DNA of 64,000 nucleotides from Halobiforma nitratireducens JCM 10879 (GTDB lineage: Archaea > Halobacteriota > Halobacteria > Halobacteriales > Natrialbaceae), in contig NZ_AOMA01000063.1 in the NCBI RefSeq assembly GCF_000337895.1, positions 98,275 to 162,274 on the forward strand, written 5' to 3'. The notes under the pieces were generated by a model. It ran no database searches and was not told the DNA's origin. It saw only the letters and a list, made by a program, of their open reading frames with translations. Within the stretch, counting starts at the first letter, position 1; every line of letters starts with the position of its first letter. Both the position numbers and the translations under genes were made by a program. Of this stretch, positions 57,383 through 61,545 are shown one piece after another.

Positions 57383-58438
57383 ATGACGAGTTCCGAGGCA
57401 CGAGAGGAGGCAGTACTCGAGGCCGTCCGCGAGCGACGCGAACTGGTCAACGATGCGATTCCGGAGGAGTTGCCCGTTCAGCGTCCGGAGCGACTCTACG
57501 AAGCGTCGCGATACCTGCTGGACGCCGGCGGGAAGCGGCTTCGACCGACCGTCCTGTTGACGACCGCCGAGGCGCTCGCCGACGTCGAGCCGCTGTCGGC
57601 CGACTACCACGAGTTCCCGACGCTTCACGAGACGACCGACGCGGTCGACGTGATGGACGCCGCGGTCAGCGTCGAGGTTATCCAGTCGTTCACGCTGATC
57701 CACGACGACATCATGGACGACGACGACCTCCGTCGCGGTGTCCCTGCCGTCCACCGGGAGTACGATCTGGAGACGGCGATTCTGGCCGGCGACACGCTGT
57801 ACTCGAAGGCGTTCGAGATTATGCTCGAGACGGGGGCAAACCCCGATCGTACCGTCGAGGCCCTCGACGTACTCGCGACGACGTGTACGAAAATCTGCGA
57901 GGGACAGTCGCTCGATGTCACCTTCGAAAATCGTGACGACGTGATGCCCGAGGAGTACCTCGAGATGGTCGAGCAAAAGACCGCGGTGCTGTACGCCGCA
58001 TCGGCGTGTCTGCCCGCCATTTTGCTCGGAGCCGACGACGAGACCGTCGACGCCCTCTACGGCTACGGCCTCGACATCGGCCGGGCGTTCCAGATTCACG
58101 ACGACGTGCTCGACCTGACTGTTCCAAGCGAGAAACTCGGCAAGCAACGCGGCAGCGACCTCGTGGAGAACAAGCAGACGCTGATCAACGTCCACGCCCG
58201 CGAGCAAGGTATCGACGTGGCGGATCTCGTCGACACCGACGATGTCGATGCCGTCACCGAGGCCGAGATCGACGACGCCGTCGCCGAACTCGAGGAGGCG
58301 GGCTCGATCGAGTACGCCAACGAGATGGCTCGCGATCTGGTCGACCAGGGGAAAGCGCGACTCGAGGTGCTGCCCGAGAACGAGCCGCGTCGGCTGCTCG
58401 AGGATCTGGCGGATTACCTGATCGAGCGCGGCTACTGA
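57383..58438 (+). CDS. idsA: geranylgeranyl (polyprenyl) diphosphate synthase
   Basis: A 351-residue trans-isoprenyl diphosphate synthase that lengthens allylic chains for archaeal ether lipids. First aspartate-rich motif LIHDDIMDDDDLRRG (about 110-125) and second FQIHDDVLD; the GGKRLRP motif is at about 46-52. The residue before the first motif (TLIHDD) and the chain length fit a C20 enzyme, though C15 or C25 is possible. It probably shares a transcript with rnj. Its stop codon is the first base of repeat A copy 3. Confidence 0.95.
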   Translation: MTSSEAREEAVLEAVRERRELVNDAIPEELPVQRPERLYEASRYLLDAGGKRLRPTVLLTTAEALADVEPLSADYHEFPTLHETTDAVDVMDAAVSVEVIQSFTLIHDDIMDDDDLRRGVPAVHREYDLETAILAGDTLYSKAFEIMLETGANPDRTVEALDVLATTCTKICEGQSLDVTFENRDDVMPEEYLEMVEQKTAVLYAASACLPAILLGADDETVDALYGYGLDIGRAFQIHDDVLDLTVPSEKLGKQRGSDLVENKQTLINVHAREQGIDVADLVDTDDVDAVTEAEIDDAVAELEEAGSIEYANEMARDLVDQGKARLEVLPENEPRRLLEDLADYLIERGY

Positions 58439-58523
58439 GACGACTGGGCAACAGTCGGTACACACCCGATCGCGTCTCGACGCCCGTCGTGGAAGGCGAC
58501 GGCGTCTCCAGTGTGAGCGGTGT
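58436..58523 (+). repeat. dispersed repeat A, copy 3
   Basis: Starts at the idsA stop codon and runs 88 bases: CAACAGTCGGTACACACCCG, then CGACGCCCGTCGTGGAAGGCG and GACGGCGTCTC. It matches copy 1 (2077-2164) at most positions, including spacing, in the same orientation relative to its gene. The sequence offers several GC-rich stems. Confidence 0.75.
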
Positions 58524-58792
58524 GTGCAGTGTGTCCTCCGACAGTACGAGCCGACTCGGTAGGTTCATTTTACACGTCCTTGGACATCGTCGGTACCGAC
58601 GGGCCTCGTGACTGGGCCCACTCCCGAGACACGCGAGCTGTTTCACCTGCCGGTCGGGTAGTTCACACGGCAACGACGGACTCCAGAATAGCCGACAGTC
58701 TGGAGCGACAGCTCGAGTCGGGTACGTAACAGCAGTTGCGGTCATCGGCGCTTCGGTGGTCGTCCGAAACACCGTCAGGTTCGTCTCCTACC

Positions 58793-58877
58793 TGATACGG
58801 ATTGCTGTAATTATTTCCCGCCGATCGCCGACCCCGGTCTGGCGATCGGCGGTAACTGACTACAGTAAACCGTATGA
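58793..58877. repeat. palindromic repeat B, copy 2
   Basis: Left arm TGATACGGATTGCTGTA (58793-58809) and right arm TACAGTAAACCGTATGA (58861-58877) are imperfect inverted copies. Between them CCGCCGATCGCC and GGCGATCGGCGG (58819-58830 and 58841-58852) pair perfectly, so the whole 85-base element folds into one long hairpin. Confidence 0.85.
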
Positions 58878-58914
58878 GTCCGTGGTTCGCCGACAGCCGG
58901 TGGGGAACTCAATT

Positions 58915-59055
58915 TGAAACAGCGAGAGAATCCCGCCGTTCACGGCGTTCGCAAGACCACAGGTCTTGCGCGTAGACCGGCACTCGTCGAGTTCCGGGGA
59001 CGTTGACGAGAGCGAAGCTCTCGTTCGCACACCAGAACGCGAAGCGTTCTGGGGA
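58915..59055. repeat. IS-like remnant and three-hairpin cluster
   Basis: GAGAATCCCGCCGTTCACGG (58925-58944) resembles the conserved 3' end region of haloarchaeal tnpB elements and their guide RNA. Three hairpins follow: CGCAAGACC/GGTCTTGCG (58950-58958 with 58962-58970), ACGAGAGC/GCTCTCGT (59006-59013 with 59017-59024, loop GAA) and CCAGAACGC/GCGTTCTGG (59032-59040 with 59044-59052, loop GAA). A decayed mobile element end is the likely source; no transposase remains. Confidence 0.5.
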
Positions 59056-59078
59056 CGGGCGTCAATCCCGTCACTCGA

Positions 59079-59606
59079 CTACATCCCACCCATAAACCCG
59101 ATCGACCAATCGCCATCGTCGCGGTAGTACTCCCACTCGGCGAGCGTCTCACCCCAGGCAACCGGCGGGATTTCGTCGTCGCCGTCGTCGAGTTCCTCGA
59201 GTCGGTCCCGAAGGGCTGCCGGGCCGAAGTCCGGTTCGCGTGTCAGCCGTTCTGCCTGACGCGGGCGGACGGCGACGCGGCGCTGTTCGCCCTCCCAGTC
59301 CCACAGCGATGTCTCGCCGTAGGCGAAGACGACGTCGTAGTGTCGGACGTGTTCGTCGCGAAAGACGGGGTGGACAGTACGGACGATTTCAGCGACGATT
59401 CGGTAGACGGTATCCAGATCGGGATCGTCGGTCGTCTCGTGATCGATTTCGACCAGCGGCACGTAGATGGGGTTCCCGTCCCGGCTGGTGTTGACCTGGT
59501 AGACTCCCTCGAGTGCCGGTGGGGCTGCCAGTACGTCCTCGTCGCGACCGAACGAACACCGCTCGAGTGCGTCGTCGACTTCGGCGGGCAGGGTGGACTG
59601 GCTCAT
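59079..59606 (-). CDS. conserved-looking hypothetical protein (175 aa)
   Basis: A 175-residue acidic soluble protein (MSQSTLPAEVDDALERCSFGRDEDVLAAPPALEG, then YQVNTSRDGNPIYVPLVEIDHETTDDPDLDT, DVVFAYGETSLWDWEGEQRRVAVRPRQAE and IGFMGGM). It has regular alpha-beta spacing and good codon use but no known family. A TATA-like TTTTTTGTAC (minus strand, about 59626-59634) lies about 25 bases upstream of the ATG at 59606. Its neighbours are repeats on both sides. Confidence 0.75.
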   Translation of the reverse strand: MSQSTLPAEVDDALERCSFGRDEDVLAAPPALEGVYQVNTSRDGNPIYVPLVEIDHETTDDPDLDTVYRIVAEIVRTVHPVFRDEHVRHYDVVFAYGETSLWDWEGEQRRVAVRPRQAERLTREPDFGPAALRDRLEELDDGDDEIPPVAWGETLAEWEYYRDDGDWSIGFMGGM

Positions 59607-59661
59607 ACGGTAATTGACAGAACGCGAGTACAAAAAACTGGGTCGGGTTTCGGCGACGGAG

Positions 59662-59745
59662 TGAGACGGTTTGCTGTACGTCGGTTCCGGTATACCCGCG
59701 ACTGTGCACGGTTGCACTGGGACATCGGTGCAGCAATCCGTATGA
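59662..59745. repeat. palindromic repeat B, copy 3
   Basis: Left arm TGAGACGGTTTGCTGTA (59662-59678), right arm TGCAGCAATCCGTATGA (59729-59745). The inner part shares GGTTGCAC(T/C)GG with copy 1. It lies between a hypothetical gene and gltX, which run divergently. Confidence 0.8.
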
Positions 59746-59829
59746 GGGGGGTGGTTGGTGAGGTACCTGGACCGAGACGGTGACCCGACACCGCGGGGGT
59801 TTTGGTCGGGGCACGAATAGCGCTCGATA

Positions 59830-61545
59830 ATGGACGACGAACTACGCGAACGCGTCGAGCGCGAGGCCGAAAAACACGCGCTGTTGAACGCCGTCAAACA
59901 CGAAAGCGACGCCGACGTCGGTGCGATCATGGGGCCGCTGATGGGTGACAACCCCGACTTTCGCCCACACGGCGACGAGATACCCGGCGTCATCGGCGGC
60001 GTCGTAAGTCGGGTCAACGGCCTCTCCTACGAGGAGAAACGCGAGCGCCTCGAGGAACTCGCACCCGAGGAACTCGCGGAGATCGAGGCCGAAGAGGAAG
60101 AAGACGAACACCCTCTACCGGACCTTCCCAATGCCGAGGAGTACGACGAGGTCCGGATGCGGTGTGCACCCAACCCCAACGGCCCGTGGCACGTCGGCCA
60201 CGCCCGGATGCCCGCCGTTATCGGCACCTACCGCGACCGCTACGACGGCTGGTTCTGCGTCCGCTTCGACGACACCGACCCCGAGACCAAACGTCCCGAC
60301 CTCGAGGCCTACGACTCGATTCTGGACGATCTCGAGTATCTGGGCTTCGAGCCTGATGCCGTTTACAAGGCCAGCAACCGACTCGAGACATACTACGACC
60401 ACGCTCGGGAACTGATCGACCTCGGCGGAGCCTACACCTGCTCGTGTTCAGGCGAGGAGTTCTCCGAGCTGAAGAACTCGGGCGAGGCCTGTCCGCACCG
60501 CGACAAGGACAAAGCGACGGTCCTCGAGGAGTTCGAGGCGATGGTCGACGGCGAGTACGACAGCGGCGAGATGGTCCTGCGGGTGAAGACGGACATCGAG
60601 CACAAAAACCCCGCCTTGCGGGACTGGGTCGGGTTCCGGATGATCGACACTCCACACCCACGCGAGGAGGCCAGCGAGTATCGTTGCTGGCCGATGCTGG
60701 ATTTCCAGTCGGGGATCGACGACCAGCTGACCGGCGTCACGCACATCATCCGCGGGATCGACCTCCAGGACTCCGCGAAACGCCAGCAGTTCGTCTACGA
60801 CTACTTCGACTGGGAGTATCCCGAGGTCGTCCACTGGGGCCACGTCCAGCTGGATGCCTACGACGTGAAGATGAGCACCTCTACCATCTCGGAACTGATC
60901 GAGGAAGACGACCTCGACGACTGGGACGACCCACGCGCGCCGACGCTCAAGAGCCTCCGTCGCCGGGGCATCCGGGGGGACGCTATCGTCGACGCCATGG
61001 TCGAACTCGGCACCTCGACCAGCGACGTCGATCTGGCGATGAGTTCGATCTACGCCAACAACCGCGAGTTGATCGACGACGAGACCGACCGCCGGTTCCT
61101 CGTCCGCGACGGGACCGAGCTTCCCCTCGGCGGCAGTCCGCCGGAGGAGGCCAACCCGCCGCTGCATCCGGACCACGCCGAGCGCGGCGTCCGCGAGATT
61201 CCGGTCGGCGACGCCGTCCTCCTCGAGGCCGAAGACCTCCCCAACCGCGAGGAACGTCTCTGGCTCAAGGGGCTGGGCTGTTTCCAGTACACCCGCGATA
61301 CGCTCCAGTACACCGGCGAAGACATCGAGGTCGTCCGCGAGGGCGATGTCGACGTGGTCCACTGGGCTCCTGCGGAGGAGAGTGTCCCCGTCCGAATGCG
61401 GACGATGGACGGCGACGTGTCCGGCCGTGCCGAACCCGGCGTCGGCGACCTCGAGAGCGACGAACTGGTCCAGTTCGAGCGCGTCGGGTTCGCCCGGATC
61501 GACCGCCACGACGACGAGACCGTCGTCTACTACACGCATCCCTGA
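59830..61545 (+). CDS. gltX: glutamyl-tRNA synthetase
   Basis: Class I synthetase; in archaea it charges tRNA-Glu and also tRNA-Gln, which is then amidated. 571 residues. The HIGH-like motif is NPNGPWHVGHAR (about 115-126), KMSKS appears as KMSTST (about 350), and AYTCSCSGEEF with CPHRD provides a cysteine pair. The first 85 residues are an archaeal N-terminal region (DNPDFRPHGDEIPGVIGGVVSRVNGL) and the C-terminus is a beta-barrel anticodon part typical of the GlnRS-like group. Confidence 0.97.
   Translation: MDDELRERVEREAEKHALLNAVKHESDADVGAIMGPLMGDNPDFRPHGDEIPGVIGGVVSRVNGLSYEEKRERLEELAPEELAEIEAEEEEDEHPLPDLPNAEEYDEVRMRCAPNPNGPWHVGHARMPAVIGTYRDRYDGWFCVRFDDTDPETKRPDLEAYDSILDDLEYLGFEPDAVYKASNRLETYYDHARELIDLGGAYTCSCSGEEFSELKNSGEACPHRDKDKATVLEEFEAMVDGEYDSGEMVLRVKTDIEHKNPALRDWVGFRMIDTPHPREEASEYRCWPMLDFQSGIDDQLTGVTHIIRGIDLQDSAKRQQFVYDYFDWEYPEVVHWGHVQLDAYDVKMSTSTISELIEEDDLDDWDDPRAPTLKSLRRRGIRGDAIVDAMVELGTSTSDVDLAMSSIYANNRELIDDETDRRFLVRDGTELPLGGSPPEEANPPLHPDHAERGVREIPVGDAVLLEAEDLPNREERLWLKGLGCFQYTRDTLQYTGEDIEVVREGDVDVVHWAPAEESVPVRMRTMDGDVSGRAEPGVGDLESDELVQFERVGFARIDRHDDETVVYYTHP

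Follow-up and report, generated by a model that had tools for sequence, protein, structure and literature searches.

A candidate mobile two-hairpin repeat, M, nested in a putative IS200/IS605-type transposon left end of Halobiforma nitratireducens

INTRODUCTION

The closest described counterparts of the repeat reported here are small mobile palindromes. The available part of PMC3119063 describes the SMR-A elements of Haloquadratum walsbyi (HqIRS42, HqIRS43 and HqIRS55) as free of a transposase, as making no target duplication and as mobilised in a way that it calls enigmatic. They are about 110 bp long with prominent inverted terminal repeats, commonly exceed 95% identity within a type, and strongly prefer the near-terminal palindromes of IS605-type transposons and of palindrome-associated transposable elements (PATEs), which have near-terminal palindromes at both ends and no genes. 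Single-strand transposition of IS605-type elements is stated in the same part of that paper (PMC3119063).

The REPs tagged with CGTC, among them Rickettsia RPE-4 and RPE-6, consist of one stem of 8–9 bp with a loop of 4–5 bases; the part of PMC3733652 available to us gives no dedicated transposase as known for them and equates some with Rickettsia palindromic elements. Finally, the hairpin-rich RNAs of haloarchaea known as sotRNA or omega-RNA lie at tnpB 3′ ends, according to the portion at hand of PMC12558985.

Here we describe a gap between genes of Halobiforma nitratireducens JCM 10879 in which repeats and a hairpin-rich stretch follow one another, and the short two-hairpin unit, M, that recurs within that stretch. 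Positions refer to the window, that is, the whole stretch of 64,000 nucleotides that was analysed.

THE LOCUS AND ITS REPEATS

The gap (58439–59078, 640 bases) separates a polyprenyl synthase gene (PF00348, ending at 58438) from a small gene on the minus strand (59079–59606, 175 aa), which belongs to no Pfam family that could be found and has only distant relatives in the genus, at 35–38% identity; gltX (PF00749) starts at 59830. Searching the gap against its own genome gave 55 matches in three separate blocks, comprising the gap itself, 19 matches to a repeat A (17 places), 33 to a repeat B (22 places including the window copy, the palindromic B being often matched on both strands) and two to the hairpin stretch.

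Repeat A (58439–58546, plus strand) and repeat B (58796–58874, plus strand) were delimited from own-genome matches and from alignments of 20 copies each, taken from genus genomes. A has imperfect terminal inverted repeats and is flanked by TGA (58436–58438), with which the prenyl synthase gene stops, and by CGA (58547–58549); B has the inverted repeat ends TACGG...CCGTA around a GC-rich palindromic core, with TGA on either side (58793–58795 and 58875–58877). There are 37 own-genome matches to A, many of them partial, and 49 to B, where the palindrome causes many places to be counted on both strands; A is found in four of the five genus genomes and B in all five. Among the aligned copies the bodies are conserved, the ends are inverted repeats and the flanks vary. 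An identical 3-mer stands on both sides in 12 of the 16 scorable A copies (20 aligned) against 5.2 expected from random pairing of flanks, and in 15 of 20 B copies against 8.2; the window copy of A is one of the four scorable copies with unequal flanks. As the flanking 3-mers are mostly TGA or TCA, both repeats appear to be MITE-like elements with a 3-bp TNA duplication, a feature that we take to be reminiscent of IS5-type transposases. Elsewhere, at L013:1961-2070, a tnpA–tnpB element with a broken tnpB frame abuts an inverted copy of A, which makes that place a second one where A and an IS605-type element have landed together.

The original prediction had read the gap as a landing zone for small elements, with A, B and a hairpin stretch in succession and a second B some 600 bases further on. 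All three were recovered where it had placed them, each in multiple copies, and the second B lies, inverted, at 59665–59742 (minus strand; TGA flanks at 59662–59664 and 59743–59745), 587 bases after 59078. The landing zone is likewise supported: from the stop codon of the synthase gene to gltX the congener G001 has 242 bp and none of these repeats, whereas the interval in JCM 10879 measures 1391 bp and contains the MITE-like A and B, a transposon end bearing a pair of M units, the small gene and the second B. Different sequence follows the synthase gene in the congeners G002, G003 and G004. Neither A, B, the hairpin stretch and the second B nor the spacer between A and B was found at the four congener loci (up to 1.5 kb past the orthologous prenyl synthase gene, E ≤ 0.01), so the insertions appear limited, among the five genus genomes, to the lineage of this strain.

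A PUTATIVE SOLO LEFT END

The hairpin stretch (58914–59082) does hold three perfect hairpins, as had been reported, with stems of 9, 8 and 9 bp and loops ACA, GAA and GAA; it also holds a fourth with one mismatch, and the hairpin of a transposon end. It folds far more stably than shuffled sequence (z −4.9 as DNA and −4.7 as RNA; of 200 shuffles, none matched it in either form).

Judged by their relatives, the two outer parts of the stretch, both on the plus strand, appear to be the solo left end of an IS200/IS605-type transposon and not a tnpB 3′ end. The 5′ part (58914–58946, through the arm CGCC-GTTCAC-GGC(G)) matches sequence found just ahead of tnpA/tnpB or tnpB genes in the same orientation; the 3′ part (59057–59082, GGGCGTCAATCCCGTCACTCGACTAC) was placed by alignment with L038 and by a 27-nt match to L022. 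Of 27 compared loci, 12 have such a left end ahead of tnpA/tnpB or tnpB and on the strand of these genes (L013, L022, L027, L031, L034, L036, L039, L040, L043, L044, L048 and L050); L026 and L020 show L022 and L048 a second time, and the assignment of L048 relies on an N-terminal piece of 74 residues. In the remaining 15 the end is solo or truncated, or the TnpA/TnpB queries have no match; at L051 a gene annotated as 'transposase', its type not stated, lies 215 bp downstream of the end. The order at L013 is left end, tnpA, frame-broken tnpB and right end. Downstream of the window copy no right end was recognised and a transposase gene of its own is absent, and the remnant is probably inert. 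Its sole visible effect here concerns the small gene, whose stop codon (59079–59081) sits within it. At many of the 27 loci, though not at the window copy, the pentamer CTATC stands directly before the end and is possibly a target or TAM of these elements.

The stretch had been taken for a tnpB-like 3′ end that would recur beside tnpB elsewhere, its hairpins perhaps forming part of an omega-RNA-like guide left without its protein. Hairpins of type M do occur at tnpB 3′ ends (L012, L023, L059, L061 and L080), and it is because of them that the stretch was likened to such an end; its own match is to the left end that precedes tnpA/tnpB. The guide RNA is unsupported at this locus, since the stretch reads as a left end and sot0042 (Rfam RF02656) has no match at 58300–59900 at E values up to 5; as a control, the same model gave 96.5 bits at the tnpB end of L031 (gathering score 88). 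Weak Rfam matches to ar7, AaHKsRNA22 and hya at the window are far below their gathering scores and were taken as chance. Another place in the same genome, L002:1501-2030, holds a remnant of about 530 bp with a left end containing two M, a degenerate sot0042 (44.9 bits, below the gathering score of 88) and a right end, and no protein gene; it is, from its sequence, a better candidate for a protein-less omega-RNA.

THE NESTED UNIT M

In its plain form the transposon end carries the hairpin CCCGCC-GTTCAC-GGCGGG, which in some relatives is CCCACC-GTTTAC-GGTGGG with the pairs kept. In the window copy two units of 55 bp lie between GGC and GGGCG of this palindrome, and with both taken out the sequence aligns to the M-free end of L038 with zero leftover bases. 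Unit 1 (58947–59001, plus strand; 68 bits with covariance model R1) has the hairpins CGCAAGACC-ACA-GGTCTTGCG and CCGGCACTC-GTC-GAGTTCCGG; unit 2 (59002–59056, plus strand; 81.5 bits) follows head-to-tail and has two hairpins with GAA loops. An R1 scan of the 64-kb window listed unit 2 and not unit 1, which reaches its 68 bits in the genome scan, so the window count is a lower bound. Otherwise similar left ends hold no M unit (L013, L022, L038, L039), one (L048, L049, L050, L052) or two (the window, L002, L047, L051). At the left ends of L027 and L043 the same site holds an inverted relative of M with the linker GCCCATC and two hairpins.

The layout of M is GTTnACGAGA-hairpin-TCGTTCGCACACCAGAA-hairpin-TTCTGGGGAC. 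The ends read CGTT and, on the other strand, CGTC, although the C and the G at the very ends may be target bases. The CGTC tag is unpaired and stands beside a hairpin, the 3′ end GGACG being CGTCC on the other strand. An alignment of 20 units from loci of differing context (63 columns) was folded by RNAalifold into two hairpins with 18 pairs. Paired cells in this structure amount to 96.1% where shuffles give 85.4%; double-sided changes affect nine pairs (4.9 in shuffles) and 32 cells (8.7), and none of 500 shuffles reaches any of the three values. Another measure, the number of additional pair types, is about equal in both (14 and 13.7). When the pairing partners are slid the signal is lost, a control that leans towards the structure because the structure was derived from the same alignment.

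R1 finds M in 58 of 61 genomes of the family, with at least 15 copies in the present one; counts per genome are lower bounds, 91 candidates having been scored in each. A degenerate pattern of M matched at least 117 stretches in 84,980 species, and the 80 among the matches listed are all haloarchaeal by title. On the Haloquadratum plasmid PL47 no M was found, the best score being 9.7 bits. From 276 R1 matches of at least 50 bases we retained 192 with exact ends (GTT...GAC) and distinct surroundings: 113 are 57 bp long, 34 are 56, 34 are 55, and 11 have other lengths across 53–59. The subtype with the GCCCATC linker accounts for 32 of them. Neither a published description of M nor its core string was found in the literature searched.

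TARGET SITE

The 192 copies reduce to 60 distinct flank pairs, which have C at −1 in 58 and G at +1 in 59; further upstream, G or A stands at −2 in 58, G at −3 in 48 and C at −4 in 42. From these flanks M appears to insert between C and G of CGRC|G, in either orientation and without target duplication. Its own tail, GGAC|G, fits this target, so that tandem and tail-to-tail copies can arise. Five of the 192 copies stand directly after the end of another, and a right flank resembling an inverted partner was seen in 14 rows at eight loci, some pairs being counted from both sides.

M is located at palindrome-rich places, and not inside a hairpin as a rule. Empty sites, when joined, fold more stably, at −8.06 kcal/mol against −5.56 in 1200 control sites from the same loci (p about 1e-7). 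The stricter idea that M always lies inside a hairpin was rejected: the junction is enclosed by a stem in 35 of 60 sites and in 764 of the 1200 controls. Apparent solo ends of another transposon class (L037:1380-1500, L033 and L056) hold M together with further hairpins that differ in sequence and have GAA or TTC loops, as though a single palindrome had collected more than one hairpin family.

M AND TRANSPOSASE GENES

With nine TnpA and TnpB queries and a radius of 1.5 kb, similarity to these genes was found near 95 of the 192 copies and not near the other 97, several of which lie in IS6-like genes or in solo transposon ends. Twenty-four copies (nine sense, 15 antisense) lie inside tnp genes, and all are 57 nt long, a length shared by 89 of the 168 copies elsewhere; the 24 represent six distinct sites by flank, so there are fewer events than rows. 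Within the TnpB of L263 the M peptide VHKSDSSCAAHQKSEISED is an exact insertion of 19 residues relative to the M-free TnpB of L024, the two proteins being 66% identical overall. Copies inside tnp genes thus seem to be kept in frame. When every open frame across M was counted instead, the two groups did not clearly differ (length divisible by three in 50 of 78 spanned copies and 66 of 114 others). This second test is of no help here: chance frames are long in GC-rich DNA, and only the test based on homology is informative.

Copies of 55 and 56 bp adjoin gene pieces with matches to the Pfam families rve_3 and DDE_Tnp_IS240, one of them above cut-off. For rve_3, L082 scores 27.5 bits, above the cut-off, and L067 25.3, just below it; for DDE_Tnp_IS240, L234 scores 24.1 bits, below the cut-off of 27. 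We read these three pieces as probable IS6-like transposases, in keeping with a similar place on a plasmid (H11) that is annotated 'IS6 family transposase'. Pfam was run on six pieces flanking M; among them L101 and L264 had no match and L250 only a weak winged-helix match below cut-off.

Two observations concern other hairpins and older insertions. An open tnpA of the same genome (L012:2945-3015, minus strand) has three extra in-frame hairpins near its 5′ end, AGAACC..GGTTCT, GGAAC..GTTCC and CAGTACCGC..GCGGTACTG, which look like one more insertion of hairpins, different from M in sequence. The TnpB C-termini of L024 and L263 (TSSES..DSDGLRKS..DFRTPVE) resemble, by eye, an old antisense M peptide, TSPEIEDFWCANESLRDSLTPVE, and such tails may derive from decayed M.

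HOW M MAY HAVE ARRIVED

The account that we favour, and hold to be probable though by no means secure, is that the window stretch is a left-end remnant of an IS200/IS605-type transposon entered twice by M, and that M itself is a miniature element mobilised in trans. M would have entered the left-end palindrome to leave two units in tandem, and it would move as a folded single strand under the action of a Y1 (HUH) transposase of IS200/IS605 type supplied in trans. Movement of M itself is suggested by its exact ends, fixed target, lack of duplication, presence in both orientations and unrelated host genes, and by the differing numbers of M at the same place in near-identical hosts. IS605-type elements transpose as single strands. 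The nesting of M in such elements, together with its paired hairpins and its outward CGTT and CGTC tags, points to a single-stranded path and to Y1 acting in trans.

Y1 as the enzyme is a guess, and a doubtful one. No dedicated enzyme for M was found. Y1_Tnp is matched in 46 of 58 genomes, and 11 of the 12 without it carry M, one with at least 15 copies. Over the 58 genomes the rank correlation of M counts, themselves lower bounds, is 0.36 with the number of Y1 genes and 0.41 with the number of TnpB genes. An attempt to name the enzyme by co-occurrence was given up as weak on the Y1 correlation and the Y1-less genomes with M.

More tentatively, M could be an archaeal REPIN-like unit of two hairpins that carries outward CGTY tags and travels as single-stranded DNA. 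Its niche would be the palindromes of other transposons, and it would re-create its own target at its tail, hence the dimers; it might tame IS605-type and IS6-like elements through their ends and genes, and give haloarchaeal TnpB new in-frame tails and loops. No host function is indicated for M at the window locus.

Among the rival explanations, the one that survives best, unlikely as we judge it, is that M is not transposed and spreads among palindromes by recombination, gene conversion or replication template switching, with hairpin-rich tracts stalling forks. This would suit the missing tie to an enzyme and the copies in genomes without Y1, as well as the many copies in similar palindromes of related transposons and the tandem and tail-to-tail arrangements; spread by homology, however, would hardly yield exact ends (GTT...GAC) and a CG-centred target at 60 flank pairs, genes outside IS605 included.

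We regard it as improbable that IS200/IS605 and IS1341 elements include M as a functional part, such as a transposase-binding or regulatory structure, that is duplicated or lost with the transposon. Its conserved structure with compensatory changes, the proximity of 95 of 192 copies to tnpA or tnpB similarity within 1.5 kb and the weak climb of copy number with TnpB count (rho 0.41) are what such a part would show, but M-free left ends stand before long open tnpB genes (L031, 448 aa; L036, 436 aa) and before an open tnpA (L039), and copies of 55 or 56 nt, which break the frame, lie beside IS6-like transposase pieces.

That the window hairpins are the scaffold of an omega-RNA-like guide from a tnpB 3′ end is very improbable: M-type hairpins at five such ends and the L002 remnant, where a degenerate sot0042 RNA and a right end lie about 170 bp on from a left end with two M, speak for it, and against it stand the left-end position of the stretch, the failure to recognise a right end or to match sot0042 there at E values up to 5, the close relatives of the same transposon ends that lack M, and the occurrence of M in both orientations and also beside pieces of IS6-like transposases, which are not known to have guide RNAs.

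Taking M to be, as we favour, an inserted unit, three look-alikes at haloarchaeal transposon ends can be told apart, namely the end palindrome, the omega-RNA and a nested hairpin repeat, the last of which can mislead attempts to annotate the guide RNAs of haloarchaeal TnpB. Should M prove mobile, transposons that encode RNA-guided nucleases would have in it a widespread parasite whose target, CGRC|G, can be read, and how SMR-A-like and CGTC-tagged repeats move would become testable in a tractable archaeon.

COMPARISON WITH KNOWN SYSTEMS

The comparison that follows is with these systems as described in the available parts of the sources. The window remnant resembles a PATE in being an IS605-type end without genes and differs in having a left end only; L002, unlike the window, has a left end, an omega-RNA remnant and a right end. 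M can insert at tnpB 3′ ends, where omega-RNA lies, and is also found away from them.

Like SMR-A, M enters near-terminal palindromes of IS605-type elements and duplicates no target bases as it does so. A single M, at 53–59 bp and mostly 55–57, has ends that are alike only as CGTT and CGTC, its sequence varies with the pairs kept, and it also occurs in frame in tnpB and beside IS6-like pieces; in these points it is unlike SMR-A. A tail-to-tail dimer of M, about 113 bp with alike ends, could share the SMR-A design, SMR-A having been compared by description only.

With the CGTC-tagged REPs and the REPINs (PMC3733652, PMC3116915) M shares short palindromes, an outward tag, dimers and positions inside genes, and with the Rickettsia palindromic elements it shares in-frame insertion within genes (24 of 24 copies in tnp genes are 57 nt long). 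Unlike the CGTC-tagged REPs it has two hairpins per unit, is archaeal and often lies within transposons. REPINs have an associated Y1 transposase gene of RAYT type; for M the corresponding figures are those given above, with Y1_Tnp in 46 of 58 genomes and M in 11 of the other 12. We class M with the small mobile palindromes as a novel variant, and assign it to neither SMR-A nor REPIN.
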